From assembly GCF_006475605.1 (NCBI RefSeq), contig NZ_ML636837.1, positions 1 to 64,000 on the forward strand: a stretch of 64,000 bases of DNA. The letters run 5' to 3'. The position numbers and the translations under genes were made by a program. Positions 1,783-21,630 of this stretch are shown here, piece by piece. The DNA is from Asticcacaulis tiandongensis. Lineage in GTDB: Bacteria; Pseudomonadota; Alphaproteobacteria; Caulobacterales; Caulobacteraceae. Below the pieces are notes generated by a model, which saw nothing but the letters and a program-made list of their open reading frames with translations, was not told where the DNA came from and did no database searches. The stretch's first letter is position 1. Each line of letters opens with the position of its first letter.

Positions 1783-2229
1783 ATGTCTTTTGGTAAAATT
1801 TCGGCCATCGCCCTCATGGGGGTAATGATCGGATCCGGTGTACAGGCCCAGTCGATGTCGACGGCATCGGCAGGTTTTGAGACCGGTTATGGCCGCGCAC
1901 GTGGCGCGGAAGAACGCGCCATCAACCCATCCACGCGCGATGCCAACGGCAATCGTCTGATGCTTGACGGTGTGATTGTGACGGGTTCGGACAATAGTGT
2001 TTATTCCCAATCGCGCACCTATGGGGCGGGCGATTCCTATTCCGGCGCAGGTGCGCTCGGCGGGGCCACGGCGATCGGTAACTATCTCTCGGTCGTGGTT
2101 CAAGGCAACTACAACACCGTGATCATCGACTCCACACAGATTAATAACGGTGACATCACCGCGACCAACAAGAACCAGACCGCGACTGCCGGTGCTGAAA
2201 CGGATATTACAGGAAGCCTAGCATGGTAA
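1783..2229 (+). CDS. hfaA: holdfast anchor protein HfaA
   Basis: A 148-residue exported protein with a signal peptide ending near residue 22 (VQA-QS). The C-terminal half carries a curlin-like Asn/Gln pattern ('VVVQGNYNTVIIDSTQINNG'), as in HfaA of Caulobacter, a cell-surface protein that helps tether the polysaccharide holdfast to the stalk or pole. AGGAG lies seven bases before the ATG. It is the first gene of hfaABD; its last codons overlap the start of hfaB by 7 bp (ATGGTAA), implying translational coupling. Length and composition fit the family. The assignment rests on both the sequence and the following CsgG-family gene. Confidence 0.88.
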   Translation: MSFGKISAIALMGVMIGSGVQAQSMSTASAGFETGYGRARGAEERAINPSTRDANGNRLMLDGVIVTGSDNSVYSQSRTYGAGDSYSGAGALGGATAIGNYLSVVVQGNYNTVIIDSTQINNGDITATNKNQTATAGAETDITGSLAW

Positions 2230-4446: not shown

Positions 4447-4452
4447 CAGCCT

Positions 4453-4477
4453 GTCTGAGATTTAACTTTATTCAGAC
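4453..4477 (+). terminator. weak hairpin after hfaD
   Basis: GTCTGA (4453-4458) pairs with TCAGAC (4472-4477) across a 13-base A/T-rich loop, just after the hfaD stop codon. There is no proper T-run, so it may be only a weak or factor-assisted terminator. Confidence 0.25.
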
Positions 4478-4524
4478 ACAAAACTTTGTAAGGGTCGCGT
4501 CCATATTTAATGGAGGCGGCCCTT

Positions 4525-7407: not shown

Positions 7408-7410
7408 GCA

Positions 7411-7452
7411 AAACAAAACCCCCGCCTCGGAAACGAAGCGGGGGTTTTGTTT
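7411..7452. terminator. bidirectional intrinsic terminator
   Basis: AAACAAAACCCCCGC pairs with GCGGGGGTTTTGTTT around a short loop, giving A/T tails on both sides. It lies between the convergent M16 peptidase gene and the gene at 7472-8266 and can serve both. Confidence 0.9.
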
Positions 7453-7471
7453 AGACTAAGGTTTTTTGCGC

Positions 7472-8266
7472 TTACTGGACGAAGCCACCGACCCCACCGT
7501 CAAACACCATGTTCGACGAATAGGAGGCTGAGGATTGTTTGACGATCTCGCGTTGCGCCATATAGCTCTCGGTGGTCGTCAGTGTCAGAAGCTTAGTGCC
7601 TGCGCCGAATTTACGCAGCAGCGAGCGCTCATTACAGGCGCGGGCCGACTTCTGACGGCGGCATTCCAGACGACCGCCTTCGTGCCAAAGGGCATCGTTT
7701 TTGGCGCAGTCATAGCTCTTGCCATCGGCAATATATTGCAGGCGTGTACCGGCAATGCAGCGATAGACTTCGCCGGTATAGTTGCCATTGACGTCACGGC
7801 CACCAAAGACCTGTGAGGCCGGATGCGGCACACCCTTATCGTCAATACAGGATGCCTGAAGCAGCACTTCGCGGGTCACGATGCGTGAGGCTTCGTAGGA
7901 TTCAAAGCCGCGCTCTTCCGCGCCCTGTACATTCAGGCCCATGCTGGACGGGATGCCTTGCGCCTGTGACCAGTTGCCATAGCCGCCGCCATAATAGACC
8001 GCGCCGGAACCGGAACCGTTATAGGAACCGGGACCTGCGTGTGCATTGGCATTGGCGCGGACGTTCACGTTGACATTGACGTTGACATTGCCACCGCATT
8101 TACCGCCACCGCAGCCCGGCATGTTCGGCCCACCCGGATGCACCGGTGGTGATGGCGGAGGCGGAGGCGCACAACCGTTTGAACACTGAGCCTGAGCCAC
8201 CCCTGCGCCGCCAATGATGGCCACGACTGCCAGAGCGGCAAAAAAACTAAAAGGCTTCACGCGCAT
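7472..8266 (-). CDS. secreted protein of unknown function with Pro and Asn-Val tracts
   Basis: A 264-residue exported protein that I do not recognise. A signal peptide ends near residue 26 (AQA-QC). Then follow a proline run (about 34-41), a Gly/Cys-rich patch (51-58), an (Asn-Val) repeat at about 60-68, and a Gly/Ser/Tyr-rich linker. The C-terminal 150 residues look folded and hold eight or so cysteines ('QASCIDDKG', 'EVYRCIAG', 'SYDCAKN', 'RLECRRQ', 'SARACNER'), suggesting disulfides. The ATG at 8266 has GGAG six bases upstream. It is convergent with the peptidase gene. A cell-surface or periplasmic role is inference only. Confidence 0.75.
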   Translation of the reverse strand: MRVKPFSFFAALAVVAIIGGAGVAQAQCSNGCAPPPPPSPPVHPGGPNMPGCGGGKCGGNVNVNVNVNVRANANAHAGPGSYNGSGSGAVYYGGGYGNWSQAQGIPSSMGLNVQGAEERGFESYEASRIVTREVLLQASCIDDKGVPHPASQVFGGRDVNGNYTGEVYRCIAGTRLQYIADGKSYDCAKNDALWHEGGRLECRRQKSARACNERSLLRKFGAGTKLLTLTTTESYMAQREIVKQSSASYSSNMVFDGGVGGFVQ

Positions 8267-8590
8267 ATGACGCTCCATAAAAGTCCAAATCCGTCAGATG
8301 TTCCAAATCAGTGCAAACGCATCTGTGGACATCCCTATCCGGACGATCTTAGCAAGAACCGTACCGGACTAATCCCCGTCAACTTATCCTGCTAAACTTG
8401 TCGTTTCCTTAAATTCAGACGTAAAATGCGAAAGAGTTTTCACTTTTTACGCGTTTTCAATGCCAATTTTCGGGCCTTTTGTGCCCCCCGGGGGATAAGA
8501 CGCCCCCCAAGATGGTCCAAGATGACACAGAGACGCGGGCTTTGCGCCGGTCTCTTGATCAGCCCGCCTGACTGCGTCATGCTCAGGGTC
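8267..8590. other. 324-bp divergent intergenic region
   Basis: This stretch separates the secreted-protein gene (minus) from the PPK2 gene (plus) and must hold both promoters, though neither is clear to me. The notable element is an imperfect hairpin at 8420-8451: CGTAAAA and GAAA on one arm pair with TTTC and TTTTACG on the other, with a symmetric three-base internal bulge. It could be an operator or a terminator. I see no gene. Confidence 0.4.
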
Positions 8591-9355
8591 ATGACAGACA
8601 CAAAAGACACCCATCAGAAACGGCTTGAGCAGCTTCAGGTATCATTGGTTGATGCCCAGATATGGTCGCAGGCCGAAGGCAAGAAGATCATTATAGTGTT
8701 TGAAGGCCGAGATGCCGCCGGTAAGGACGGCGCCATCAAGCGGATCATTGAGCCTCTGTCCATACGCCAGACCCGTGTCGTTGCCCTGCCGAAACCGTCT
8801 GATCATGAAAAGAGCCAATGGTGGTTTCAGCGCTATGTCGCGCACCTGCCGGCGTCAGGTGAATGGGCCCTGTTTAACCGGTCATGGTATAATCGCGCCG
8901 GTGTCGAGCGGGTCATGGGATTTTCAAGCGCCCATGAGCAGGAGATCTTTCTGCGCGATGTCAGGCCGTTTGAGACCATGCTGCACGATTCCGATATCAC
9001 CCTGATCAAGTTCTGGCTCGATATCTCAAAGGATGAGCAGAAGGCGCGTCTGGAGGCGCGGCGTTCCGATCCGCTGAAGCGCCTTAAGGTGTCCGATCTC
9101 GATAAGGTGGCGCAGGATAAATGGGCGGATTATTCCAAGGCCCGCGATGTCATGCTGGCGCGGTCGCACCATGATGAAGGGGCCTGGTACTGCGTTAAGA
9201 CCAACAACAAGAAAAAGGCGCGGGAAAATATCATCCGGCACATCCTGACGGCCATTGGCTGCCCGGCCTACAGCCAGACGCCGGAACCACCTGACCCTGA
9301 GGTGGTCTTCAGTTATGACGAGGTCATTGCCGGTAATAAAACCCTGTTCAAATAG
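8591..9355 (+). CDS. ppk2: polyphosphate kinase 2 family protein
   Basis: A 254-residue PPK2-family kinase, which uses polyphosphate to phosphorylate nucleotides or the reverse. Walker A is GRDAAGKDG (about residues 39-47), the Walker B-like segment is 'NRSWYNRAGVERVMGF', and the lid contains 'RRSDPLKRLK'. The 'FNRSWYN' where most members have 'FDRSWYN' changes the usual Asp to Asn, and this is worth noting because that Asp is widely conserved. The ATG at 8591 is chosen to match the family N-terminus; upstream in-frame ATGs exist (8579) and none has a strong Shine-Dalgarno. Length fits single-domain class I PPK2. The nucleotide specificity cannot be assigned. Confidence 0.85.
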   Translation: MTDTKDTHQKRLEQLQVSLVDAQIWSQAEGKKIIIVFEGRDAAGKDGAIKRIIEPLSIRQTRVVALPKPSDHEKSQWWFQRYVAHLPASGEWALFNRSWYNRAGVERVMGFSSAHEQEIFLRDVRPFETMLHDSDITLIKFWLDISKDEQKARLEARRSDPLKRLKVSDLDKVAQDKWADYSKARDVMLARSHHDEGAWYCVKTNNKKKARENIIRHILTAIGCPAYSQTPEPPDPEVVFSYDEVIAGNKTLFK

Positions 9356-9448
9356 AGGGTTTAATGGACGTTAACCTTGTTTGGTAACGCTTTCTTGACT
9401 CTGTTTAACCATCATGGCGCGACTGTGTCCTGCTGAGAACAGCGGGCG

Positions 9449-10045
9449 ATGAACAAAAGGTTCCGAGTTAAGTTTACCGTGATGACCGAAGCCCCCCTGC
9501 ATTCCCCCCGTTCAAGGGCCGCATTGAAAGTGTGCGGTGAATGCAATCTGTGCTGCACGGTGTACGACACCCCCGACATGGGCAAGAAGGCAGGCCAGAC
9601 CTGTCAGCATTCAAAGTCTGATGGCGGATGCGGCATTTGGGGCCTGCATCCCGAAAGCTGTCAGGATTTTAAGTGCCTGTGGCTCAAGCATGATGACCTG
9701 AACGGTCTGTGGCGACCGGATACCGCCGGTTTTGTCATGCGCTTTGAGGCCGAAGGCAACAGCCTGTGTGTCGATGTGGATCCTCAGCGCCCGAACCACT
9801 GGCGACGCGAACCCTATTATGATCAGCTAAAACTATGGTCAGAAGGCATCAGACGCGGCGACAGCCGTGTGCTGGTCTATGCGGTCGAAGGCCTCTATGT
9901 CGTGACGCCTGACGAAGACCTGCTGCTGCGCAAACCGCGTCGCGGGGATCGTCTCGAAACCGGTATGGAATATACGCTGTTTGGCCTGACACCCTTCGCG
10001 CGCATTGTACCGGCGGCACAGATCCGGCAGTTAAAACGCGCCTGA
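9449..10045 (+). CDS. cysteine-cluster (YkgJ-like) protein
   Basis: A 198-residue soluble protein with an N-terminal metal-binding pattern, CGECNLCC (Cys29, 32, 35, 36), followed by Cys at 'GQTCQH', 'GGCGIW', 'PESCQDFKC'. This resembles the YkgJ zinc/iron-chelating family, whose function is largely unknown. The rest of the protein is a mixed alpha/beta region with no motif I can name. The start could be the ATG at 9449 or at 9482, and neither has a strong ribosome-binding site. It is followed by ubiA after 57 bp on the same strand. Confidence 0.7.
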   Translation: MNKRFRVKFTVMTEAPLHSPRSRAALKVCGECNLCCTVYDTPDMGKKAGQTCQHSKSDGGCGIWGLHPESCQDFKCLWLKHDDLNGLWRPDTAGFVMRFEAEGNSLCVDVDPQRPNHWRREPYYDQLKLWSEGIRRGDSRVLVYAVEGLYVVTPDEDLLLRKPRRGDRLETGMEYTLFGLTPFARIVPAAQIRQLKRA

Positions 10046-10102
10046 TTCCAAAAAGACCTGATCCTACTCGACTTTTGATACGGGCCGGTTCATCAAGGCA
10101 TT

Positions 10103-11029
10103 ATGAGCGAATCCGATCCCCTGTCCTTACCTGATGCGGCCCGAAAGAACTGGGTCGACGCCTATGCGCCCGCCTCTGTGCGCCCGTGGCTGCGGCTGGG
10201 GCGCTTTGATCGTCCTGCCGGTATCTGGCTCCTGTTTTTGCCGGGTATGATGGGGCTGCTTTATGGTGCAACGACACCGTCATGGGAGCTGGCCTATAAG
10301 CTGGTGCTGTTCCTGATCGGGGCCGCCCTGATGCGCGCCGCCGGATGCGCCTATAATGATATTGTTGACCGCGATATTGACCTTAAGGTCGCGCGCACGC
10401 GCCTGAGGCCGATTCCGTCCGGTCAGATTAGCATTAAACAGGCCGCCGCCTTTATTGTCGCCTGTTCGCTTATCAGTTTCCTGATCCTCATTCAGTTAGG
10501 CACCACGGCTATCTGGCTCGGGTTCGCGTCGTTGGGATTAGTGGCCGCCTATCCGTTTATGAAGCGCATCACCTGGTGGCCGCAGGCCTGGCTTGGCCTG
10601 ACCTTTAACTGGGGCTTTCCCATGGGCTATGCGGCGATTACCGGACATATCACGGTCGCCGCCATGATATTTTACAGCGGTCTTATCTTCTGGACCATCG
10701 GTTATGACACCATCTACGCCTTGCAGGATCGTGAGGATGACGCCCTGATCGGTGTTAAGTCCAGCGCCCGTATTATGGGGGACAAGGTGCATCTTGGGGT
10801 CGGCATCTGTTATGCCATTGCCGTCGCCCTTACCGGATTAAGCGCCTATCTCGGCGGCCTGTCGCCCCTGTTCTATATTGGGCTTGCGGGTGTAGCGGTG
10901 CATCTGTGGCGTCTGGTGGCGACACTGGATACAGGCGATGGAGCCGGTGCGCTGAAACGTTTCAAGGCCAGTGGCCTTACCGGCCTGATCTGGGCCATAG
11001 CCATTATTCTGGGTCATCAGGGAGTATAA
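10103..11029 (+). CDS. ubiA: 4-hydroxybenzoate polyprenyltransferase
   Basis: A 308-residue integral membrane enzyme of the UbiA family that attaches the polyprenyl tail to 4-hydroxybenzoate in ubiquinone synthesis at the inner membrane. The first Asp-rich motif is NDIVDRDID (Asn85 onward) and the second is 'DTIYALQDREDD', which together bind the Mg-prenyl-diphosphate. About eight to nine hydrophobic helices are visible, and 'RPIPSGQIS' is the usual segment after motif one. AAGG lies four bases before the ATG. The next gene starts two bases after its stop codon, so the two are probably cotranscribed. Confidence 0.93.
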   Translation: MSESDPLSLPDAARKNWVDAYAPASVRPWLRLGRFDRPAGIWLLFLPGMMGLLYGATTPSWELAYKLVLFLIGAALMRAAGCAYNDIVDRDIDLKVARTRLRPIPSGQISIKQAAAFIVACSLISFLILIQLGTTAIWLGFASLGLVAAYPFMKRITWWPQAWLGLTFNWGFPMGYAAITGHITVAAMIFYSGLIFWTIGYDTIYALQDREDDALIGVKSSARIMGDKVHLGVGICYAIAVALTGLSAYLGGLSPLFYIGLAGVAVHLWRLVATLDTGDGAGALKRFKASGLTGLIWAIAIILGHQGV

Positions 11030-11031
11030 CC

Positions 11032-11832
11032 ATGCGCATCGCCCCTAAACTTATATCTACGCTGATGGCGACCGGTCTTTTAGTGACCGGTGTCGTTTCC
11101 TGCTCAAAGCCAAAAGACGAAGCCGCGGCAACAAGCACCCTGCCCCTGAGCTATAGTCACGGGGATGAAAATGCCGAGGTCAGCCTGACCCTGCCTGTGG
11201 ATTTCCGACGCTTTCCGGCCCTGCATGAAACCCTTTATAGCGAAACCGAAACCGAGCTTAAGGCCTTCGTTGAGAATGCCACCAAGACCCGCGCCGACCT
11301 TAAGAGCGAAGGCTTTGACTCACCGCCCTATTTCCGCACGACCGTCTGGCACCTAAGCGGTGAAAGCCCGCAACTGGCCTCCTTCTATGCCGAGCATATG
11401 GAGTTTAGTGGCGGCGCGCATGGCAATATGAACTTCCAGACCATTTTGTGGAACAAGACGGACAATCAGCCGCTCGACTCCGCGGCCCTGTTCGTTCCCA
11501 ATGCCGATTTCAGGGCGGTAGATACCTATCTCTGTACGCAGATTGAGGTCGAACGGTCGCGCCGCAACGAAACCCCGACACGTCAGAACCCCTCTGGCTT
11601 TCCTTGCCCGAAATTGCTTGAAAGCCGGATCATCCTGATCCCGTCAACAATAGCCGATAAATTCGGGGCGGTCGAAGCGCTTTACGCTCCTTATGATGTT
11701 GGCCCCTATGCCGAAGGTGCCTATCAGATCCGCATCCCGCAAAACCTGCTGCGTGAAGTGATTGCGCCTGATTATCGCGCCAATTTCGCCGGTGAGGCCG
11801 TGCCGCCAGTGGCCAAAGATAATGCGGGCTGA
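11032..11832 (+). CDS. lipoprotein with DUF3298-like domain
   Basis: A 266-residue lipoprotein precursor: hydrophobic N-terminus and lipobox VVSC with Cys24. The body resembles DUF4163/DUF3298 (PdaC/RsiV-like) proteins, including the 'GGAHGNMNFQT' segment and a C-terminal 'VGPYAEGAYQIRIP' motif typical of DUF3298. The domain occurs in extracytoplasmic proteins that bind cell-wall sugars or lysozyme; its role here is unknown. GGGAG sits seven bases upstream of the ATG at 11032, only two bases after ubiA. It overlaps the following methyltransferase gene by 11 bp. Confidence 0.8.
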   Translation: MRIAPKLISTLMATGLLVTGVVSCSKPKDEAAATSTLPLSYSHGDENAEVSLTLPVDFRRFPALHETLYSETETELKAFVENATKTRADLKSEGFDSPPYFRTTVWHLSGESPQLASFYAEHMEFSGGAHGNMNFQTILWNKTDNQPLDSAALFVPNADFRAVDTYLCTQIEVERSRRNETPTRQNPSGFPCPKLLESRIILIPSTIADKFGAVEALYAPYDVGPYAEGAYQIRIPQNLLREVIAPDYRANFAGEAVPPVAKDNAG

Positions 11833-12472
11833 TAGGCGCGAGACCTTTATTCGTCATCATACCGAGGCCTTGCCGGTACCGGCTCTGGCCGATATCCGGC
11901 TCTATCAGGCGCATGAGGTCACCGGCCTGTGGCAGATGACCGAAGCAGAGCTTGAGGCCCATAATCTGCCGCCGCCCTTCTGGGCCTTTGCCTGGGCTGG
12001 CGGTCAGGGTCTTGGGCTTTATATTCAGGACCATCCGCATATTGTTAGAGGTAAGCGCGTGCTTGATCTGGCCTGTGGGTCAGGGTTGGTCGGCATTGTT
12101 GCGGCCAAGTGTGGCGCAGCCGAGGTTACGGTCAATGATATTGATCCGTTCACGGAGGCGGCCTGTGCGCTCAATGCCGAACTGAACGGCGTGACGTTAC
12201 GCTTTGACGGCTCTGATCGGCTGTCAGATGATATTCCTGAGGTCGATGTCATACTGGCCGGTGATATCTTCTACGAAAAAGGCATGAGCTCCGCCATGCT
12301 GACATTTTTACGCCGTGCACACGATAAGCATATTGCCATCTTTCTGGGTGACCCGCACCGTAGCTATCTGCCGCGTGAAGGCTTAAGGCGTGAAGCGCAC
12401 TATGAGGTCGCCACCCAGACCACGATTGAGGACAGCCCCACAAAAACGGTCAGCATCTGGAGCCTGATATGA
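11822..12472 (+). CDS. class I SAM methyltransferase, ETFB-lysine methyltransferase type
   Basis: A 216-residue cytoplasmic methyltransferase. Motif I is LDLACGSGLVG (about 81-91), followed by the acidic 'VNDIDP' that holds the SAM ribose, and a 'DIFYEK' motif. The 'PPPFWAFAWAGGQGL' segment ahead of motif I and the D-x-FY motif are hallmarks of the family that includes METTL20 and its alphaproteobacterial relatives, which methylate lysines of the electron transfer flavoprotein beta subunit. That substrate is inference here. The start at 11822 overlaps the lipoprotein gene by 11 bp, and the stop overlaps the next start as ATGA, so the three or four genes form an operon with ubiA. Confidence 0.8.
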   Translation: MRADRRETFIRHHTEALPVPALADIRLYQAHEVTGLWQMTEAELEAHNLPPPFWAFAWAGGQGLGLYIQDHPHIVRGKRVLDLACGSGLVGIVAAKCGAAEVTVNDIDPFTEAACALNAELNGVTLRFDGSDRLSDDIPEVDVILAGDIFYEKGMSSAMLTFLRRAHDKHIAIFLGDPHRSYLPREGLRREAHYEVATQTTIEDSPTKTVSIWSLI

Positions 12473-12813
12473 GTAAACACCACAAGATTGACTATATCGA
12501 ATGGCCTGCCGGTGATCTGGGGCCGGTGCGTGAATTTTACGCTCAGGCCTTTGGCTGGGGCTTTGTTGATTATGGCCCGACCTATACCGCCCTTAGTGGG
12601 GCGGGTCTGGATGGCGGGTTTGACGCCGATGTGACGCACGCGACACCCAAACCGCTGGTGATCCTGTATAGCGACAACCTTGAGCAAAGCCGTGAGGCCG
12701 TGATTAAGGCCGGTGGCATCCTGACGCAGGATATTTTTGACTTTCCCGGCGGGCGGCGCTTTCAGTTTTCTGACCCGTCCGGCAATGAGCTTGGGGTCTG
12801 GAGTGATAAATAA
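12469..12813 (+). CDS. VOC (glyoxalase-fold) family protein
   Basis: A 114-residue single-module vicinal-oxygen-chelate protein. It shows the paired beta-alpha-beta-beta-beta pattern, 'DYIEWPAGDLGPVREFYAQ' at the N-terminus and 'FQFSDPSGNELGVWS' at the C-terminus, the latter containing the usual metal-ligand Glu. Such proteins include lyases, dioxygenases and antibiotic-binding proteins; the substrate cannot be assigned. Its start overlaps the methyltransferase stop by ATGA, so it is translationally coupled to it. Confidence 0.82.
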   Translation: MSKHHKIDYIEWPAGDLGPVREFYAQAFGWGFVDYGPTYTALSGAGLDGGFDADVTHATPKPLVILYSDNLEQSREAVIKAGGILTQDIFDFPGGRRFQFSDPSGNELGVWSDK

Positions 12814-12881
12814 TTCACTTTGACCGGCAGGGCGATCAGGCCATAAGAGGATAATTTTCATATCCTCAATTTTACGGCCCT

Positions 12882-14432
12882 ATGTCCGAACGCCTGATCA
12901 CACAGTTAAATATGCGTCTCAAACCGTTTATGACTGATCGCACCCTGCGCTGGGGTTTGGGCGCGCTGGTGCTGGTACTGGCGCTGTTTAATTTCATGCG
13001 CGATCTCAATGATCCCAACAAGGCGTTCTGGGACGAAAGCTATTACGTCACCGCCGCCCAGCGCTATGAGGAACAGACGGCGCAATATGCCTCGCACCCG
13101 CCGCTGGGCTTCATGCTGATGGTCACGGGACGGGCAATTCTCAATGATAATAAACATATAGATGCCCATGAGGTCGCACGGGTCAAGAAGATAGACACGC
13201 GCGAAATCCCCAAAGGCTACAGCTTTGCCGGTATCCGCCTGATGGGGGCGCTGTTCGGGGTAGCCGGTGCGGTGCTGTTTTATCTTATCTGCCTGACCCT
13301 GACGCGTGAGGCCTTTTCGGCGTTTATTTTCAGTCTGTTATATGTTTTTGAAAACGCCTTCATTGTGCATTTTCGGGCGGCGCATCTTGATCCGTTTCAG
13401 ATTACCTTTGCGCTGGCGGGGATTCTGGTGTGGCTCAGGGCCTTTGACGACAAAAGGCATGACGGGCTTAAGTCTGTGGCCCTGTTTGGGGTGCTGATCG
13501 GCCTGTCGTTCATGGTCAAGGTCAATACACTGGTGCTGCTGGTGCTGCCCGGACTTACGGTGCTGAGGGACATACTCAGGGCGGGCAAGTCATTGCCAAA
13601 GGTGATTGCTGACGGCCTGATGAAAGGCGCGGTGATGGTTGCGTCCTTTGCCGCCGTGGCCGTGGCGGTGTTTGCGCTCCATACCCTGATCAACCCAAAG
13701 GCGCCTGATTTTGCGTCCGAGTCCGGCAGACGCGACAAGGCCTATATGAGCGAGGCCTATATTGGCTGGCTTGAGGGGCGTGAACCCTTGAGTGCCACGG
13801 TGATGATCGATGCCACCAAGGGCTATTATGCCTATATGAAATACGATTTCACCGGCATCGTAAAGACGGAGAAAAACGGCTCGCGTCCGGCGGCCTGGCC
13901 GGTGATGTCAAAGATCATCAATTACCGCTGGGATTCCGGCGGCGGTCAGACCAGCTATGTGCAGATGGTGGGTAATATCTTAAGCTGGACGCTGGGCTTG
14001 CTGGCGCTTGGGGGCGCGGCTGTGTTGCTGATCCTCAGGTTTTATCGGTCACGCCCCTGGCTTGAGACGCGCGAGATGGACATGATGGCCGCCGTCTTTG
14101 GGATGTATCTCATCTTTATGGGGCTGCATATCTGGCTGGGCACCCAGCGGGTCATGTATATCTATCATTATTTTACCGGCCTGATCTTAAGCTATATGCT
14201 GTTGCCGCTGATCTGGCAGGTGCTTAAGGGGCGGTTTGTCGTGCTCGAAAAGCAGAAGGATTACGTCCTCGGTGGCCTGTGTGTCGGCATAGGGCTTTGC
14301 TTTTTGTGGCTAAGCCCCCTGACCTATCATTACCCGCTGACCCGCGCCGAGTGCGAGGCGAAGAACATCCCGTTCAGGATTGTGATCTGTCAGCCGATAG
14401 CTAAGCCAAATACCCCACCACCCCAATCCTGA
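12882..14432 (+). CDS. PMT-family membrane glycosyltransferase
   Basis: A 516-residue polytopic membrane protein of the dolichyl/polyprenyl-phosphate-sugar glycosyltransferase (PMT/ArnT-like, GT-C) superfamily. The first periplasmic loop carries the DE motif in 'FWDESYY' (Asp51-Glu52), and about 10-12 transmembrane helices follow, with 'HPPLGFML' in the first loop region as in PMTs. It likely transfers a sugar from a lipid carrier to a protein or glycan in the periplasm; the acceptor is unknown. The start codon lacks a strong Shine-Dalgarno site. The last codons (NTPPPQS) and the stop lie inside a dispersed GC-rich repeat that begins near 14409, so the natural C-terminus appears to be supplied by the repeat. 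Confidence 0.85.
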   Translation: MSERLITQLNMRLKPFMTDRTLRWGLGALVLVLALFNFMRDLNDPNKAFWDESYYVTAAQRYEEQTAQYASHPPLGFMLMVTGRAILNDNKHIDAHEVARVKKIDTREIPKGYSFAGIRLMGALFGVAGAVLFYLICLTLTREAFSAFIFSLLYVFENAFIVHFRAAHLDPFQITFALAGILVWLRAFDDKRHDGLKSVALFGVLIGLSFMVKVNTLVLLVLPGLTVLRDILRAGKSLPKVIADGLMKGAVMVASFAAVAVAVFALHTLINPKAPDFASESGRRDKAYMSEAYIGWLEGREPLSATVMIDATKGYYAYMKYDFTGIVKTEKNGSRPAAWPVMSKIINYRWDSGGGQTSYVQMVGNILSWTLGLLALGGAAVLLILRFYRSRPWLETREMDMMAAVFGMYLIFMGLHIWLGTQRVMYIYHYFTGLILSYMLLPLIWQVLKGRFVVLEKQKDYVLGGLCVGIGLCFLWLSPLTYHYPLTRAECEAKNIPFRIVICQPIAKPNTPPPQS

Positions 14433-14475
14433 CGGATTGCGGTCCCCCTCCCCGCCAAAGGCAGGGAGGAGATTT
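14409..14475. repeat. REP-like intergenic repeat, family A copy 1
   Basis: It has the layout ATACCCCACC - hairpin - GGTCCCCCTCCCC - loop - GGGAGG shared with copies at 22331 and 45781. It overlaps the 3' end of the PMT gene and the end of virB11. The first hairpin is the most decayed of the three copies. Confidence 0.75.
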
Positions 14476-15442
14476 AGTCGAGTTGCGGGAAGGCGATATC
14501 GCTGATGACCCGTTCGCCGCCGTGACGTGACAACTGCACCACCACATCAATCAGCGATGAGGCATAGGCCAGGGTTTCGCGGCGGGTTAGTTGCGTGCCG
14601 GACTGCATGACCATCAGGGCAATCTGTTCCAACGCCCCCTGAGGCGTATTGGCGTGCACGGTGGTAAACGACCCCGGATGGCCGGTGTTGATGGCGCGCA
14701 GGAAGGTGGTCGCCTCCTCGCCCCTGATTTCACCGACAATGATACGGTCAGGGCGCAGACGGAGGCTAGCCTGCAACAGATCATTGATCGTGACGCGGGC
14801 TTCACCGGTTTCGCCCTTCACGGCCACCAGCCCCAGCGCGTTTTCATGCGGACAGGCAATTTCCGGCGTATCCTCGACCATGATGATGCGTTCATGCAGC
14901 GGCACGGTTTTCAGGAGCGCATTGAGAAAGGTCGTCTTGCCCGATGACGTACCGCCGGAAATCAGGATGGTCTTGCGCGCTGCAACGGCTTCGGTGAGGA
15001 ACTTCACCGGCTCACGGCGGGCATAGTCAAGGTCTTCGTCGCGGTTTATCGTCGGCACGGGGACGATCGGGCCGCGATCATAGGCCGACAGGTCGAGATC
15101 AACCATCACATGACGCCGGATGGCCAGCGCCCAGTGTTTGCGTGTGGCGGGTGGCCCTGCCAGTTGTACGCGCTCACCGCCGGGGAGACTGGCCGACAAC
15201 AAGGGGGTTTCACGGCTGATGCCCTGATGGGTCAGGCGCGCAATCTGTGCCGCCAGACGCCCCAGAAGGACGTCATCGACCTCAGGGGCGGCAACCTTCA
15301 GCATCTGCGGCTGACCGGAGATTTCGACCCACATTTCACCGGGGCGATTGACGAGGATTTCCGTTACGTCTTCACGCTCAAGCCAGTGCGCAAACGGCTT
15401 AAGCCATGTGCGCAGATAAACGCCGTCAACAGGTGTAGCCAT
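14474..15442 (-). CDS. virB11: VirB11-type secretion ATPase
   Basis: A 322-residue hexameric traffic ATPase of the VirB11/GspE class. Walker A is GGTSSGKT (163-170), the Asp box is 'MVEDTPEI', Walker B is 'RIIVGEIRGEE' and the His box is 'HPGSFTTVHA'. It powers assembly and substrate transfer in type IV secretion systems from the cytoplasmic side. The start overlaps the virB10 stop as TAATG. It is the last gene of the virB operon, and its stop abuts a REP-like repeat. Confidence 0.92.
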   Translation of the reverse strand: MATPVDGVYLRTWLKPFAHWLEREDVTEILVNRPGEMWVEISGQPQMLKVAAPEVDDVLLGRLAAQIARLTHQGISRETPLLSASLPGGERVQLAGPPATRKHWALAIRRHVMVDLDLSAYDRGPIVPVPTINRDEDLDYARREPVKFLTEAVAARKTILISGGTSSGKTTFLNALLKTVPLHERIIMVEDTPEIACPHENALGLVAVKGETGEARVTINDLLQASLRLRPDRIIVGEIRGEEATTFLRAINTGHPGSFTTVHANTPQGALEQIALMVMQSGTQLTRRETLAYASSLIDVVVQLSRHGGERVISDIAFPQLD

Positions 15443-16527
15443 TAGTCAGCCACCGAGAAATCAAGGTCGCGGGCGACGAAGACCTGAACCGGCGTGCCCT
15501 GCGCGACCTTGATGGTCGGTGGGATGCGCATGTTTTCCTGCAAGGCTGAAGTCGCCGCATTGGTCGCATCGCTTGAGGAGCCGATGACGATCGTATTATT
15601 GCGCGAGCCGCCGGAGGCCACGACGCCATTGATCACCGACATCAGTATGGCCGAGCCGAAACGCTTGGCAAAATGGGTATCGACCGATCCTGACAAGCCC
15701 GCCTGCCCCATATCATCGGTGGCCGGAGACCCCAGTTGCACCGACACGCCATCGGGACGGATGACACGGTTCCAGATGACAAAGGCGCGGGTCACGCCCA
15801 GTGACAGGCCGCTTTTATACTGACCGATCAGGCGGCTGCCGCGCGGGATAAGTACGGTCTTGCCGTCAAAGCTGCGGACATCGCGTGTCACCAGCGCCCG
15901 TGCATAACCCGGCAGATCGGAGTTCAGCGCCGTCTCAAGGACCGCCGGAATGATTGCCCCTTGCGGCAGGGTTTCGGACGGGTTTTCCATGCGGCTGGCG
16001 CGGTTGGACAGGTTCGAGGTCTGGTTCGAGAAAAACTGATCATCGCCACTCAGCATCGGGGCGTTACCGCCCGTCGCGGCAGCGGCCACCGGTGTGCCAT
16101 CAGGTGCCAGTTGAATGGGGATGGAATTATCAAACACCATGACCGCTGCATTGGAACCACCCGCCACACCCTCGGCGCGAGACGGCGATTCAGGGGGCAT
16201 GGGCTGCGGTGGTAAGGGCTGCGGCGGCAGGGCCTCACCTTCGGGCAGAGGGGTTGCCGGAAAATCCATAGTCCCGTCAGGTGCAGCCGGCGCAGGGGCT
16301 ACAGCGACAGGGGCGGCCGGTGGTGGCGGCTGGCGATTGCCGGACATACTAAAAAGCGTTATCCCACCGAGCACACAGGCCCCCAGAACGCCTGCGGCCA
16401 GCCCCAGACTATCGCCCACGGTTGAGGATTTGGCGACGGCAGGCATGGCATTGACCGAGGCGGCTTCAAGCGCTTCGGGCGGCAGGTCGCGGCGCGGGTC
16501 TGAACCGGTTTTATCCTTGCCCAGCAT
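15442..16527 (-). CDS. virB10: VirB10-type T4SS core protein
   Basis: A 361-residue envelope-spanning T4SS core component. A short cytoplasmic N-terminus, a single transmembrane helix (about 41-62), a proline-rich periplasmic stretch (about 66-115) and the VirB10/TrbI beta-barrel domain ('VLIPRGSRLIGQYKSG', 'VSVQLGSPATDDMGQAG') are all present. VirB10 links the inner-membrane ATPases to the outer-membrane channel. Adjacent virB9 and virB11 overlap it by one base each, showing a tight operon. Length is slightly short for the family. Confidence 0.93.
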   Translation of the reverse strand: MLGKDKTGSDPRRDLPPEALEAASVNAMPAVAKSSTVGDSLGLAAGVLGACVLGGITLFSMSGNRQPPPPAAPVAVAPAPAAPDGTMDFPATPLPEGEALPPQPLPPQPMPPESPSRAEGVAGGSNAAVMVFDNSIPIQLAPDGTPVAAAATGGNAPMLSGDDQFFSNQTSNLSNRASRMENPSETLPQGAIIPAVLETALNSDLPGYARALVTRDVRSFDGKTVLIPRGSRLIGQYKSGLSLGVTRAFVIWNRVIRPDGVSVQLGSPATDDMGQAGLSGSVDTHFAKRFGSAILMSVINGVVASGGSRNNTIVIGSSSDATNAATSALQENMRIPPTIKVAQGTPVQVFVARDLDFSVAD

Positions 16528-17378
16528 CAGTTACGTCCTCCGAACCATGACTTTTTCGCCTTGGCTGTACCGAGCTTTTCACCATCGGCGACCGGATCAC
16601 CGGGACGCGGCGCACGCGGTTGCGGCGACAGGGCATCGAGCGAGGGCACAATGAAGGCGTCGTTGTAAAGTACCGCCGTCTGATCGCCGCTGCGGAGCGT
16701 AAAGGCGCGCGCCACCACATCGGCGACCATATAGTCGCCGCGACTGGCATAGTTGATCAGGCTTTCGGTATTACCCGACGTCACGGCATAGACCGCCGGT
16801 GCGGCCACGCCGTCGGCCCATAGAAAATAGGTCGAGGTGCCGTCATCAAACACCCTGAGCGGCACCAGTTCTTTCTGGCCGGAATAGGTGTAGCTTGAGT
16901 TGCGTTTTACCGGCAGCGGCAGGTCGCCTTCGGGATCAACCGGGGCGGCCAGACTTTGCAGCGCCGTCAGATCGACCGGTTCATCCTTATAGGTAAAGCG
17001 CAGGTCATAGACGACATCGCCCCGTCGGCAGGCCGCATTTGAGGCGGTGCGCAGTTCGAAATTATAGCGGTGCCGGTCAGTGACCACGCTCATATTGGAA
17101 AAGGCGTTTGGTGAGGTCGGCTTCAGGAACAGAAGATCGCCGCGTTTGTTCGGCGCGACCTGCCATTGTGAGGCGTCCCCCAGACCGATATTTTCCACAC
17201 GTTCACCGGCACCAAAGGTCACCATGGTCTGAAAATTGACGCAGGCCTCAAGGCGCACCACCGCCCCTTCGTTATGTTCAACCGTGCGGATACGCGGCTC
17301 TGACGACGCCTGTAACGGCAAGGCCAGAAGCCCGGCGGCACACAAACCGGTGACGATAAAAGAGGAAGATTTCATCAT
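16527..17378 (-). CDS. virB9: VirB9-type T4SS core protein
   Basis: A 283-residue periplasmic/outer-membrane T4SS core protein with a signal peptide of about 24 residues. The VirB9/TrbG pattern is clear: 'SQWQVAPNKRGDLLFLKP' and 'NMSVVTDRHRYNFEL' in the N-terminal domain and 'STYFLWADGVAAPAVYAV' in the C-terminal one that normally contacts VirB7 and VirB10. No VirB7 lipoprotein gene lies next to it. The start overlaps the virB6 stop by four bases. Confidence 0.92.
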   Translation of the reverse strand: MMKSSSFIVTGLCAAGLLALPLQASSEPRIRTVEHNEGAVVRLEACVNFQTMVTFGAGERVENIGLGDASQWQVAPNKRGDLLFLKPTSPNAFSNMSVVTDRHRYNFELRTASNAACRRGDVVYDLRFTYKDEPVDLTALQSLAAPVDPEGDLPLPVKRNSSYTYSGQKELVPLRVFDDGTSTYFLWADGVAAPAVYAVTSGNTESLINYASRGDYMVADVVARAFTLRSGDQTAVLYNDAFIVPSLDALSPQPRAPRPGDPVADGEKLGTAKAKKSWFGGRN

Positions 17379-18577
17379 GAACTGCTTAAAGGCTTGGTGA
17401 CGGTGGTTGTGGCGGGGCGGTTGGCAGAGCGGAAACGTTGTCCCAGTCCCTGAGTGCGGCGGGGTGTGGCGGTGGCTGGTGCCGTGCCGCCTTCGGTAAA
17501 GACGAGGCGTTCACCGCTTTCGCGGGAAGCCGCGCTGGCGTTTTCGCGGTCGATCGCTGTGACCAGCGTATCGCTGCGGCGATCCGTGCTGCCTTCGGCG
17601 GTGGCGGCGACGGTTTGAGCGGCCTGACCGGCGGCGACAAAGGCCGACAGGGTTTGCGCCTCCTGCGTCTGGCGGTCGGAGCTTGTTTTGTCACGCAGAG
17701 CCGCCTGCCAGTCGCGCACCAGCGAACCAGCCACCCACATCAGCACGGCTAAGAAAGCGGCATAGATCAGCGACCCCATAAAGAGGATAACCATCGGCTG
17801 CACCATGCGCACCGAACGCATCGGGTCTTCGGCTATGAAATCGATCAAGGGGATAAACAGGCTTAGGGCCGTTGTACCGCCTAAGACCGCCAGCATGGGG
17901 GCCAGGGCAAAGACTACGCTTGTCCGGAGCCAGCCATTGAACAGGCCACGGGTCTGACCGAACAGGGCCATAACGATAAAGATCGGCCCGAGTATCAGAA
18001 GCAGGTTCAACACCATGCGCGACAGGATCAAAACCCCAAGCGTCGAAAAGAGCAAAAACAGGCCGCTGAGCCAGAAAAGCGTGACCGGCATGGACTTGGC
18101 GGCGAGGAAACCGGTTTGCTGCCCGTCTGCCTGATTCTGTACCGTTTCAAGGCTTTGGGCGATTTCAGCAAAGCGCACGAACAGGGCATCAAGCCGTTCG
18201 GCGAAGTTCATGACGGCGCTGCCTTTTTGCCCAAGAAGCGCGGCAGCGATCTGATCCGGGCCGCCCATCAGGAGCCCGTAGAAAATCGCATTGTAAAAGG
18301 GCCAGAATGAGACAAAAACCAACACCAGCACCATGGTTATGATGCGCGGGGACATCATAGGCAGTGTCAGACGCGTACGTCCGGTCAGGAAGCCATAGGC
18401 CAGTAGCGCGACATAGATGATCAACAACAGGGTCAGGGCATAGCTGAAGGCCCCGCCCGCACCGAACAGACGGTTATAGCCTGTGGCGACTGCCTCACCG
18501 ATCTGGCAGTCCATGGCCCGCAAGGAGCCTGAAACCGAGGTTTCGCCTACAAGTGTGATCGGCGGGCAGTTGCTCAT
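17375..18577 (-). CDS. virB6: VirB6/TrbL-type T4SS inner-membrane protein
   Basis: A 400-residue polytopic protein with about six to seven hydrophobic helices between residues 30 and 290 and a long polar, Ala/Thr-rich cytoplasmic tail. Position between virB4 and virB9, helix layout and the conserved 'LLLILGPIFIVMALFGQTRG' segment support VirB6/TrbL, the inner-membrane channel component. It starts with an ATGA overlap on virB4. Its stop directly overlaps virB9, so the virB8 gene that usually sits here is missing. Confidence 0.85.
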   Translation of the reverse strand: MSNCPPITLVGETSVSGSLRAMDCQIGEAVATGYNRLFGAGGAFSYALTLLLIIYVALLAYGFLTGRTRLTLPMMSPRIITMVLVLVFVSFWPFYNAIFYGLLMGGPDQIAAALLGQKGSAVMNFAERLDALFVRFAEIAQSLETVQNQADGQQTGFLAAKSMPVTLFWLSGLFLLFSTLGVLILSRMVLNLLLILGPIFIVMALFGQTRGLFNGWLRTSVVFALAPMLAVLGGTTALSLFIPLIDFIAEDPMRSVRMVQPMVILFMGSLIYAAFLAVLMWVAGSLVRDWQAALRDKTSSDRQTQEAQTLSAFVAAGQAAQTVAATAEGSTDRRSDTLVTAIDRENASAASRESGERLVFTEGGTAPATATPRRTQGLGQRFRSANRPATTTVTKPLSSS

Positions 18578-21003
18578 GAAGCCGCCTTTTGGGCCGCCAG
18601 AGGGTTACCCGGATAGGGGTAACCGACCAGATGGGGCCACCACAGTGACGGATGATCGCCATATTGCGCCCGAAGCTCATCGAGATGGCGCACCGTGGCT
18701 TCGCGGCCCGACAGCAGGGTAATGACATCGGGCTGTGCCGACAGGTCAAGGCGGGCGACAACGCTATGGTTGCCGTGCTTGACGAGAAAGGCGCGCGAAT
18801 GGGCCGGAAGGGCGCGGATAAGTTCCAGCTCATGCTCGGTCAGGCCAAAGCCTTCGCAATAGTCTTCGAACTGGGCGCGGGGATTAGGCATGAAAATCTG
18901 GGTCGCCGACTGTTCGATGATCGCGGTCGAAATACGGCTGTCCAGCGCATCGCGCGCTGATTGCGTACCAAAGCCCAGAATGGCGTTGCGTTTACGCAAG
19001 GTCTTCATCCAGTTACGGATTGCGGCGGCGAACACCTCATCATCAAGCGCCTTCCAGCCTTCGTCGATGATCAGAATTGTCGGCGTCCCGTCAAGGCCTT
19101 CCTCCACGCGATGGAACAGATACAGCATGCACGGCGTGCGCAGGATCGGATCATTGAGCAGCTGGGTCATGTCGAAACCCAGCGTGCGGGCATTCATGTC
19201 CAGCCGGTCGGTGGCGTTGTCGAACAGCCAGGCCTTATCCCCGTCACCAGTCCACGACGAAAGCCGTGCGGCCAGATCCCCGTGCGTGGGTCTGCGTATC
19301 CCCCCAAGCAGTTCGCGGAAATAACGCAGGCGGCGATATTGCGGGTCCTGTTCGTAATTGGATTCAACGGCTTCGGCGATAATCGCCTCTTCTTCGGCGC
19401 TCAGGGGCTGGTCGGGTTTATGTACCAGCTGGGCGATAAAACTGCGCAAAAAAGCGCGGTTTGAGGGCGAATCCGGTAGCTGGAGGGGATTAAAGCCGGA
19501 AGGCTCACCCGCACGCAGGGTATCGTAGTGGCCATCAATGGCGCGAACGAAAATTTCTGCCCCGCGATCCTTGTCGAAGATGACGGTGCGCGGTTTGAAT
19601 TTCTGCGCCTGCGCCGCCAGAAAATTCAGCACCACCGTCTTGCCGGAACCGGACGGGCCTATGACGGTGAAATTGCCAAGGTCGGCCTTATGGAAGTTAA
19701 AGAAGTACGGCGTGCCGGAGGTGGTTTCAAACACCGTCACCGCCTGCCCCCAGTGGTTGCCTTCGGCCTGACCTATGGGGAAACCGTGGAGGGAGGCAAA
19801 GCTCGCGTAGGCACTGGTGGAGATCACCGCCTTGCGGGCAATATAGGCTTCGTTGCCGGGGAACTGCGCCCAGAAGGCCGGTTCGAGGTTGATGTCTTCG
19901 CGCACCGCCACGGCCCCAAGATCGGCCAGCGCTGCCAGTGCCTGAGCCGCAGCCGGATCAAGACCATTTAAGGTCGGGGTGCGGACACAGAGGCTCAGGT
20001 GGTGTTCGCCCAGCCCCAGAGAACCGGTGGTCAGGTCGTCTCTGGCCTTCATCAGGCCCTGCCGCAGGCTTTGGGCCTCTTCGTTGGCGGCACGCAGACG
20101 GCGCAGGGCCAGACTGATGCGCTCCTGACCGATCTGACGGTCAATAAAGCCATAGCTTTCGGTCAGGGTCATTTCAAACGGCAGACGTAAGAGGGCATCG
20201 CACATGCCCGGCGTGGCGTGCGGCGGATAGTCCTTGAGCGAGAGCATGGCCGCATATGTCTTGCCTTCAGTAGCAGCGGATTGCTCTATGGCCTCAAGGC
20301 CGAAACTGGTGCGGCGATAGGGGATATATTGGCCGATGTCGCTGGTGGGACGCAGCACAGGGCGCAGTTCGCCATTATAGAGCGCCGACAGAAGTTCCAG
20401 CGGCTCCGAGCAGCGGCCCGCAGCGGATTCGTAGCCGCCCAGTACACGCGGGCCATAGGCCGAGAGTGCCGCCAGAAGCGCATCGGTGGCCGCCTGAATC
20501 TCACGATGGTCGCGCGCAAGGCCTGCGGCCTGAGCGTCTTCGCCCACACCCTGCCCTAACAGACGTAAGATGCCTTCGGCAAAACCGACCTTCCCCTTGG
20601 GGTTACGGCGCACCACCGTCAGGAACAGGTCATTGACGAACATCTGACGCGAGGACAGGCGTTCCTGCCATTTGTCGTGGATCAGGCCACAGATGGCGTC
20701 ATCATAATGCGCGTTCTGGGTGACGCTGACGCGGCGGCGGATGATGTGGTGATAGAGGACAAACCGCGAAGAGCCTATGGCCCTGAGGGCGGCGGCGCGG
20801 ACGATCTGGCGGTGATTGACCTCATCGGTGTCTGCCGTCTCAAAGGCAAAGCCTTCGAGGTGGATCGACTGCATTAAGGAACCGTCGCGCAAGACGACCG
20901 TGCGGTCATCATACAGACGGTCATAAGGGAGGCGGTCCCCCGCCCGCTGTTCTTTGGCGAACCAGCGGCTGAAACCTTGGGAGGGGGCGGGTTTTGCACT
21001 CAT
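18574..21003 (-). CDS. virB4: VirB4-type T4SS ATPase
   Basis: An 809-residue VirB4/TrbE ATPase, the largest and most conserved T4SS energy unit at the cytoplasmic face of the inner membrane. Walker A is GPSGSGKT (about residue 450) and Walker B is 'ILIIDEGWKALDD' (about 640). The N-terminal CagE/TrbE domain and C-terminal 'ESATQIFMPNP' type segment are present. Full length for the family. It is seven bases from virB3 and overlaps virB6. Confidence 0.95.
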   Translation of the reverse strand: MSAKPAPSQGFSRWFAKEQRAGDRLPYDRLYDDRTVVLRDGSLMQSIHLEGFAFETADTDEVNHRQIVRAAALRAIGSSRFVLYHHIIRRRVSVTQNAHYDDAICGLIHDKWQERLSSRQMFVNDLFLTVVRRNPKGKVGFAEGILRLLGQGVGEDAQAAGLARDHREIQAATDALLAALSAYGPRVLGGYESAAGRCSEPLELLSALYNGELRPVLRPTSDIGQYIPYRRTSFGLEAIEQSAATEGKTYAAMLSLKDYPPHATPGMCDALLRLPFEMTLTESYGFIDRQIGQERISLALRRLRAANEEAQSLRQGLMKARDDLTTGSLGLGEHHLSLCVRTPTLNGLDPAAAQALAALADLGAVAVREDINLEPAFWAQFPGNEAYIARKAVISTSAYASFASLHGFPIGQAEGNHWGQAVTVFETTSGTPYFFNFHKADLGNFTVIGPSGSGKTVVLNFLAAQAQKFKPRTVIFDKDRGAEIFVRAIDGHYDTLRAGEPSGFNPLQLPDSPSNRAFLRSFIAQLVHKPDQPLSAEEEAIIAEAVESNYEQDPQYRRLRYFRELLGGIRRPTHGDLAARLSSWTGDGDKAWLFDNATDRLDMNARTLGFDMTQLLNDPILRTPCMLYLFHRVEEGLDGTPTILIIDEGWKALDDEVFAAAIRNWMKTLRKRNAILGFGTQSARDALDSRISTAIIEQSATQIFMPNPRAQFEDYCEGFGLTEHELELIRALPAHSRAFLVKHGNHSVVARLDLSAQPDVITLLSGREATVRHLDELRAQYGDHPSLWWPHLVGYPYPGNPLAAQKAAS

Positions 21004-21009
21004 GTGAAA

Positions 21010-21294
21010 TCAGGGTCTGTAGGAATTACAACGCCAGAAGCGCCAGTTGGGAATACGCGGGCAGCGCGACACCTTGGCCATCCACAGGTCAAAGATGCGT
21101 GGCTCACGCAGACAGGCCAGATAACCGATGACATGCACCAGTAGCGCTACACCCAGAGCCCAGAAAGAACGGGTAATGAGGAAGGCCTGCGTCGTTACCA
21201 CGCCATTGATGATGAAATAGCTGTAGGTGACACCCGCAAACATCTGCGGCTGGGTCAGGGCCTTGAAGACCGGTGTCCTTATAAGATCGGCCAC
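21010..21294 (-). CDS. virB3: VirB3-type T4SS protein
   Basis: A 94-residue inner-membrane protein with two close hydrophobic helices and the diagnostic C-terminus 'EPRIFDLWMAKVSRCP...FWRCNSYRP'. VirB3 works with VirB4. It starts with GTG at 21294, immediately after the virB2 TAA, with no gap between the two genes. Confidence 0.93.
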   Translation of the reverse strand: MADLIRTPVFKALTQPQMFAGVTYSYFIINGVVTTQAFLITRSFWALGVALLVHVIGYLACLREPRIFDLWMAKVSRCPRIPNWRFWRCNSYRP

Positions 21295-21630
21295 TTAACC
21301 GCCCGCCGCCTGACGGATACCGCCAACAATGGTCGCCGCGCCAAACAGGATAAAGCAGCCAAGGATTACCGTCGCGCCAAACTTCCAGTTCAGGCGTCCG
21401 GTCAGCATCATGAAGCCGATCATGGCGACGGCAATGACAGCGACGGCGGTGGCGACATTACCGAGCAGTGAACCTTGAATCCACAACAGGGCATTGAGGA
21501 TCGGGCCGGAACCTTGCGGGTCCTGCGCGAAGGCCTGCGTGGCCATTGCATTCAGCCCGGCCGCCAGCGCAAACCCGAACGCCGTCCGTTTCAGGGAAAC
21601 TGGCTTAAGCTGAAATGTGGTGTGAAACAT
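21295..21630 (-). CDS. virB2: VirB2-type T4SS pilin
   Basis: A 111-residue pilin precursor: a long signal peptide ending at AFA-QDP, then two hydrophobic helices separated by a short polar turn (VirB2/TrbC architecture). It is the first gene of the virB operon and would form the extracellular pilus or channel lining. A GGATCGGGG stretch precedes the ATG. Upstream, TTGACA at 21686-21691 on the minus strand may be the -35 of the operon promoter, but the matching -10 is poor. Confidence 0.9.
   Translation of the reverse strand: MFHTTFQLKPVSLKRTAFGFALAAGLNAMATQAFAQDPQGSGPILNALLWIQGSLLGNVATAVAVIAVAMIGFMMLTGRLNWKFGATVILGCFILFGAATIVGGIRQAAGG

Follow-up and report, generated by a model that had tools for sequence, protein, structure and literature searches.

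A conserved VirB-type secretion operon without VirB8 and VirD4 in Asticcacaulis tiandongensis and its relatives, with a possible role in moving exported lipoproteins

VirB8 is usually treated as a core part of type IV secretion systems (T4SSs). Among VirB-type machines that lack the coupling protein VirD4, Bartonella Trw and Helicobacter ComB both retain a VirB8 homologue, and ComB is without VirB11. Here we describe a VirB-type operon of Asticcacaulis tiandongensis in which no gene for VirB8 or VirD4 was found, and which lies in a 64-kb stretch of DNA at the start of contig C15 (hereafter the window; the assembly is 3.22 Mb and 99.98% complete). The operon encodes homologues of VirB2, VirB3, VirB4, VirB6, VirB9, VirB10 and VirB11 in the order usual for the VirB/D4-type (P-type, MPF-T) T4SSs of Agrobacterium and R388, from which it differs in being without VirB8, VirB5, a recognised VirB7 and VirD4. 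In R388, according to the passages of the structural report that concern these proteins, VirB4 is bound by 18 VirB8 tails, and the arches that surround the VirB5-VirB6 stalk consist of six trimers of the VirB8 periplasmic domain (PMC9259494). In the same family as our species, the chromosomal T4SS of Phenylobacterium zucineum has, by its published description, the same seven genes in the same order but differs in that the table lists VirB8 and VirD4 as well (PMC2529317). The same VirB8 gap appears in a footnote to Table 1 of Persson et al. 2009, which names T4SSs without VirB8 in Erythrobacter litoralis HTCC2594 and Erythrobacter sp. NAP1 (PMC2702493); our comparison is with the footnote alone, which comes without an analysis and conflicts with the methods section of that paper, where all seven core genes are said to be present in positive genomes. 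Beyond this footnote, searches of the open full-text literature (a scope that leaves aside most subscription journals and all bioRxiv preprints) showed no account of a VirB8-less family or of its neighbours.

The operon in the window

The genes of the operon, with their model scores, are listed below together with the junction at which virB8 would be expected.

21295..21630, minus strand: virB2, pilin subunit (111 aa); Pfam TrbC 67.9 bits against a cut-off of 27.9
21010..21294, minus strand: virB3 (94 aa, GTG start); Pfam VirB3 90.6 bits; NCBIfam VirB3 71.9 bits, below the cut-off of 74
18574..21003, minus strand: virB4, ATPase (809 aa); Pfam CagE_TrbE_VirB; TIGR00929 744.7 bits against a cut-off of 643.1
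17375..18577, minus strand: virB6, inner-membrane protein (400 aa); Pfam TrbL 95.2 bits
17375..17378, minus strand: ATGA, the overlap of the virB6 stop and the virB9 start, read from the sequence; the virB8 position in the sister operons L069-L073 and L081
16527..17378, minus strand: virB9 (283 aa); Pfam CagX 160.9 bits; TIGR02781 171.1 bits, below the cut-off of 217.7
15442..16527, minus strand: virB10 (361 aa); Pfam TrbI; NF038091 229.4 bits against a cut-off of 220
14474..15442, minus strand: virB11, ATPase (322 aa); Pfam T2SSE; TIGR02788 314.6 bits against a cut-off of 249.95

The seven frames, none of them shortened, lie close together on the minus strand, with 4-base overlaps at virB4/virB6 and virB6/virB9 and 1-base overlaps at virB9/virB10 and virB10/virB11. 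Each of the seven proteins passed the cut-off of its Pfam model; with the NCBIfam models, VirB4, VirB10 and VirB11 passed, and VirB9 and VirB3 fell below. The first-pass annotation of this DNA, made from the sequence alone, had described the order virB2-B3-B4-B6-B9-B10-B11 as complete and tightly overlapped, which the open reading frame (ORF) coordinates and the Pfam matches bear out. It had also described virB8 as missing between virB6 and virB9, and here the ATGA overlap, which leaves no space for virB8, and the closed junction found in relatives (see below) agree with it. The operon likewise has no space for a VirB5 gene, and the window ORFs and a profile search gave no gene for VirB8, VirB5, VirD4 or a transglycosylase in the operon or adjoining it, as the first reading had stated for the coupling ATPase and the lytic transglycosylase; virB1, the transglycosylase gene, was not found beside it either. 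VirB7 was not recognised at the operon, its gene being very short and no VirB7 model having been run.

A fusion of VirB8 to VirB6, VirB9 or VirB10 was considered and rejected, as the lengths of these proteins are similar in nine VirB8-bearing and 14 VirB8-less members (VirB6 about 380-426 aa). The window VirB6 ends in a low-complexity tail with a GLGQRFR motif, which according to the alignment of VirB6 (A3) is common to most of the aligned VirB8-less relatives and in part to VirB8-bearing ones. A scan for promoters and terminators was uninformative (5 promoters against 2.6 expected, and 7 terminators against 7.0 expected).

Conservation of the VirB8-less form

To place the operon among its relatives, the window VirB9 was searched against 199 genomes of the family Caulobacteraceae, 25 of them from the genus Asticcacaulis, and matches were obtained in 133. 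Forty loci (L043-L082) were chosen by VirB9 likeness, and 39 of them could be scored for the junction, as both virB6 and virB9 were there (L066 ends before virB6). The virB6-virB9 junction was closed in 33 of the 39, with a gap of -25 to +35 bases, and a VirB8 gene stood between virB6 and virB9 in the other six (L069-L073 and L081). The synteny check proposed in the first-pass annotation thus came out in favour of a conserved VirB8-less order, and this conservation excludes chance as an explanation of the closed junction. Among the best 80 of 451 relatives by VirB9 alignment, VirB8 was detected at 13 loci, at least two others (L095 and L121) being uninformative since they end before virB6, and VirD4 was found within the retrieved stretch at a single locus (L120, an outgroup on the tree). 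VirB8-less members occur in Caulobacterales (Asticcacaulis, Caulobacter and Phenylobacterium), in Sphingomonadales (among the 80 loci Novosphingobium, Croceicoccus, Tsuneonella, Aurantiacibacter and Pontixanthobacter), in Parvularculaceae, in two records labelled Rhizobium or Rhizobiales and in Xanthomonas bonasiae; several Erythrobacteraceae carry members. The VirB2 pilin and both ATPases are retained in the window and in the relatives. Thirteen of the 150 listed VirB9 matches span a stop codon; the one that was checked (G163) probably extends beyond the end of the gene, because the retrieved locus shows a 254-aa VirB9 frame. The Xanthomonas bonasiae locus (L100, NZ_JAFIWB010000009.1) has a VirB8-less operon together with c2, a gene family described below, and branches with Caulobacteraceae although its host is a gammaproteobacterium, for which horizontal transfer is the likely explanation.

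We next consider whole genomes, in which VirB8 was sought with PF04335 and VirD4 with PF02534. PF04335 finds the VirB8 of the sister operons at E ~1e-50, and a more diverged VirB8 could escape the model. VirB8 was over the cut-off in 106 of the 199 family genomes. In the genus, five of the 25 genomes had no PF04335 match (G052, G068, G080, G124 and G129), and three of these (G052, G068 and G129) had a match to neither model, G068 being a single contig. VirB9 places were compared at 105 of the 150 listed, the 45 lower-scoring ones being left out; a listed VirB8 lay no more than 2.5 kb away from at least 13 of the 105, and 41, in 38 genomes, belonged to genomes without a VirB8 match. Of 17 further genomes behind the named loci, six had no VirB8 match and 11 had one. 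The 44 genomes (38 and 6) thus selected as having the operon without a VirB8 match were without a VirD4 match in 34 cases and with one in 10; 33 of the 44 had a completeness of 90% or more, and 29 of these gave no VirD4 match. Several assemblies are fragmented or incomplete, so the absence carries less weight in some genomes.

The history of the VirB8 position was followed on a FastTree of 88 VirB4 proteins, of which 73 came from VirB8-less loci and 15 from others, including four outgroups (near-copies counted apart). VirB8 status changes three times on this tree, as the starred branches force, and three times again on a 51-row IQ-TREE. We read these changes as three losses, one loss and two regains being less likely, because the outgroup bears VirB8 and the VirB8 position is identical throughout (virB6-virB9). 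Selection was assessed in eight close Asticcacaulis pairs, in which the dN/dS of the seven operon genes was 0.00-0.17 apart from one value, virB2 in G124/G080 (0.54), which is probably due to ORFs that start too far upstream. One of the pairs, G133 with c2 and G145 without it, gave 0.00-0.11 in all seven genes. The first-pass annotation had named decay of the operon as the finding that would speak against its proposal; the low dN/dS in these eight pairs of relatives, none of them near the window itself, lends no support to decay. Its suggestion of a trimmed T4SS with an unknown task is in keeping with the conserved VirB8-less form, the purifying selection in the tested pairs and the genomes without VirB8 or VirD4 matches. 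The G+C content of the operon was about 2-5 points above its flanks in the window and in all 13 relatives measured; as all of these relatives show the excess, the raised G+C was rejected as a sign of horizontal transfer.

A natural VirB8-less family that arose by what appear to be three losses, and many of whose members lie in genomes without VirD4, would reveal which components are truly indispensable to a T4SS, and would offer a minimal system for study.

Exported-protein genes beside the operon and a possible role

Several families of exported proteins recur beside the operon, signal and lipobox calls being made by eye and with a simple pattern. The first, c2, is intradiol-dioxygenase-like, with a twin-arginine-like signal, a lipobox and a Ser/Thr-rich linker. 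A DUF1800 protein, mostly with a lipobox, recurs in a pair with DUF1501, and a TonB-dependent receptor recurs with a lipoprotein, c54, that has no Pfam match; DUF4331 was seen beside the operon only where VirB8 is present. A lipobox followed by a low-complexity linker was seen in c2, c54, DUF3443 and most DUF1800 proteins. In at least 21 of the 40 relatives (several loci are cut short), the gene immediately preceding virB2 is of SLT type, the L052 member being SLT by Pfam; it is absent at the window. We then counted modules (c2, DUF1800/DUF1501, c54 or DUF4331) at loci whose flanks extended for 4 kb or more in each direction. Of 59 such loci of the family, which include the window, 51 had at least one module next to the operon, compared with none of 20 conjugative T4SS loci (19 genomes) and none of 20 random 20-kb stretches (ten genomes). 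This count is descriptive and no independent test, because the module families were picked from the same loci.

Copy number and position of the single families offer a fairer test. Each of the 13 genomes searched for c54 had one copy of it, which stood at the T4SS locus in 12; in the thirteenth, G201, the operon is cut at a contig end. In the genus, c2 was present in 21 of 25 genomes and stood beside the operon, on the same contig, in 18 of the 21 (as a partial match in G104), and in the remaining three (G129, G149 and G153) it was on a contig other than that of the cut operon; it was absent from G119, the sole genus genome without a close operon. c2 is not strictly single, as G029, G137 and G104 each contain another match of appreciable length at a different place. 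For the seven pairs with c2, its dN/dS was 0.09-0.41, which indicates that it evolves faster than the operon. Of 150 listed DUF1501 places, 14 were no more than 10 kb away from any of the 105 VirB9 places, compared with about 0.56 by chance. A structure model of c54 (pLDDT 76, pTM 0.83) was strand-rich, with residues 1-49 disordered at low confidence, and suits a tethered surface protein; Foldseek searches with it gave no match at E 0.001 or below, the best (E 0.007) and the other top matches being pectate-lyase-like beta-helices. Upstream of the operon in L126 (3596-4894), a DUF3443 lipoprotein with a poly-Gly linker is built like the cargo set and is possibly a further cargo type.

Taken together, the gene content leads us to favour, tentatively and as a reading that may well prove wrong, a reduced VirB-type T4SS that would work independently of VirB8 and VirD4 and move periplasmic cargo, mainly lipoproteins, to the outer membrane or through it. 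VirB3, VirB4, VirB6 and VirB11 would form an inner-membrane motor, VirB9 and VirB10 the outer-membrane channel and VirB2 the pilin, and the machine would assemble without VirB8 and the coupling protein. As there is no coupling protein, cytoplasmic cargo would not be taken in the usual way; since, in addition, the neighbours have export signals or an outer-membrane nature, we propose a second, periplasm-to-surface step. Cargo would first cross the inner membrane via Sec or Tat and would mostly be lipidated and tethered by a Gly/Ser/Pro-Thr linker; the T4SS would then carry it out of the periplasm, to the outer membrane or across it. The pertussis toxin exporter Ptl resembles this proposal in having no VirD4, a substrate that is periplasmic first and substrate genes beside the machine. 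It differs in that it retains a VirB8 homologue (PtlE), of which no counterpart was found at the window operon or at the closed junctions of relatives, and in that our proposed cargo, mostly lipoproteins, has no relation to that of Ptl. Slam exporters, which display lipoproteins on the surface and sometimes stand beside a TonB-dependent receptor, resemble the proposed outcome; a Slam is a single outer-membrane protein, and the likeness is one of outcome only, with no sequence relation claimed. A more specific version, in which a widespread family of stand-alone T4SSs without VirB8 and VirD4 has turned to surface display, its cargo of tethered lipoproteins and partners exported by Tat coming in interchangeable modules, is in our view rather doubtful. 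Were it true, lipoproteins would have a new way of crossing the outer membrane, one derived from a conjugation-type apparatus. The interchangeable exported neighbours make for a testable claim on the role of chromosomal T4SSs in Caulobacterales and Sphingomonadales.

Several observations weigh against a lipoprotein-moving machine. We know of no precedent for such a cargo route. Eight of the 59 loci have no module (the window, L045, L047, L055, L126, L143, L146 and L162), although in G104 (L055) a partial c2 match lies near the operon, and three Asticcacaulis operons, including that of the window, are kept although c2 is absent both beside them and genome-wide at E 1e-8. The cargo families were named after inspection of these same loci, and the c54 search covered only genomes having the operon. 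DUF1501 occurs in 154 of the 199 family genomes, compared with 133 with a VirB9 match, most listed copies lie far from a listed VirB9, and the control genome of Caulobacter vibrioides, whose operon status was not tested, has both DUF1501 and DUF1800; this broad spread and the Caulobacter vibrioides copies argue that the DUF1501/DUF1800 pair is independent of the T4SS. No lipobox was seen in the printed stretches of the DUF1501 and DUF4331 proteins, nor in the L070 DUF1800 protein. Finally, the lack of a coupling protein does not rule out DNA transport, according to the relevant passage of PMC13046425.

We therefore weighed other explanations, beginning with the possibility, raised in the first-pass annotation, that the missing parts are encoded elsewhere. 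VirB8 is over the cut-off once in the window's own genome, on contig C21 (37.6 kb) as part of another T4SS at 4309-17818 (L006), and VirD4 has matches on C21 and on C17, in the latter case where the contig ends. In the C21 system, VirB4, VirB6, VirB9, VirB10 and VirB11 were assigned by gene order and likeness (VirB2 and VirB3 were not looked for) and SLT, VirB5, VirB8 and VirD4 by Pfam; the contig also encodes an LPD7-domain protein, a Tn3 transposase and HipA, and the system is separate and probably mobile. Two weak PF04335 matches elsewhere in the genome were rejected as chance, being by eye a cytochrome b561/YceI-like protein (C10:669506, E 0.015) and a TerC-like membrane protein (C15:486216, E 0.77). 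VirB8, VirB5, VirD4 and a transglycosylase are thus indeed available on C21, but its VirB9 is only 26% identical to that of the window, the Tn3 transposase and HipA share its contig, and relatives keep the operon without a VirB8 or VirD4 match in their genome; as relatives such as the one-contig G068 have neither, supply in trans is not required, and a loan of VirB8, VirD4 and further components by the C21 system to the operon appears highly improbable. It is also improbable, though less so, that the window lineage holds an orphan machine on its way out after the loss of c2 and virB1. Both are missing beside the operon, and c2 was not found in the window's genome at E 1e-8, but all seven frames are full length, and the G133/G145 pair, which differs in c2, shows the low dN/dS given above, albeit as a pair of relatives and not the window itself.

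The retention of the VirB2 pilin and both ATPases would suit a pilus or surface fibre for adhesion or contact, without transport, the adjacent exported proteins being co-regulated surface proteins. Some neighbours do resemble surface proteins (the TonB-dependent receptors and the strand-rich c54), but such a pilus would by itself leave unexplained the replacement of unrelated exported sets beside the same machine, and we consider it unlikely, if the strongest of the competitors. Movement of DNA, by uptake as in Helicobacter ComB or by release, has in its favour that ComB-type systems work without VirD4 and that the absence of a coupling protein is compatible with DNA transport. Against it, ComB retains a VirB8 homologue, inspection of the recurrent neighbours by eye, without a competence model, revealed no recognisable competence gene, and conjugation is unlikely because many operon-bearing genomes have no VirD4 match; we judge DNA movement about as improbable as an orphan machine.

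Surroundings of the window operon

Two genes and a short gap flank the operon.

12882..14432, plus strand: PMT, protein O-mannosyltransferase family; Pfam PMT 79.7 bits; a neighbour that recurs in some members of the family and is no component of the T4SS
14433..14473: gap of 41 bases between virB11 and PMT, where c2 lies in relatives such as L043 and L049
21930..22313, plus strand: XRE-family regulator, judged a positional neighbour and not part of the system

The PMT gene is convergent with virB11. In another Asticcacaulis genome, G042 (L201), the operon is absent from a block that runs methyltransferase-VOC-PMT-M16 peptidase-XRE-HisN, the M16 peptidase gene taking the place that the operon occupies in the window. 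The XRE protein of this block is 91% identical to that of the window, and its PMT is 64.5% identical to the window PMT, compared with at most 54% for the operon-linked PMTs compared. The window operon therefore occupies a slot that another Asticcacaulis fills differently, and may either have moved into a G042-type slot or out of it, the comparison favouring neither direction. The first-pass annotation had the virB2 promoter region shared with the XRE gene, a reading that this comparison does not support; because XRE stays with HisN and PMT in G042 without the operon, XRE was rejected as the operon regulator.

Elsewhere in the window's genome, contig C10 carries a DUF1800 gene, whose product has a lipobox and a poly-Gly/Pro linker, followed by an ORF that by eye resembles DUF1501; one DUF1501 was counted in this genome, its place not being listed. 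This pair would be the best local candidate for a client of the window operon. Among relatives, a PMT gene stands by or near c2 in several loci (L043, L044, L046, L049, L057, L058 and L098), and the long Ser-rich linker of c2 is a possible mannosylation target. Directly after virB11, L058 and L064 have two genes of shared clusters, one that by eye is response regulator-like and a sensor kinase (Pfam was run on the L058 copy only). In the window itself, a CsgG-like (curli assembly) gene and its neighbour lie at 1783-3275, and their homologues, 63-74% identical, are found near the T4SS-c2 locus in L048 and L051.

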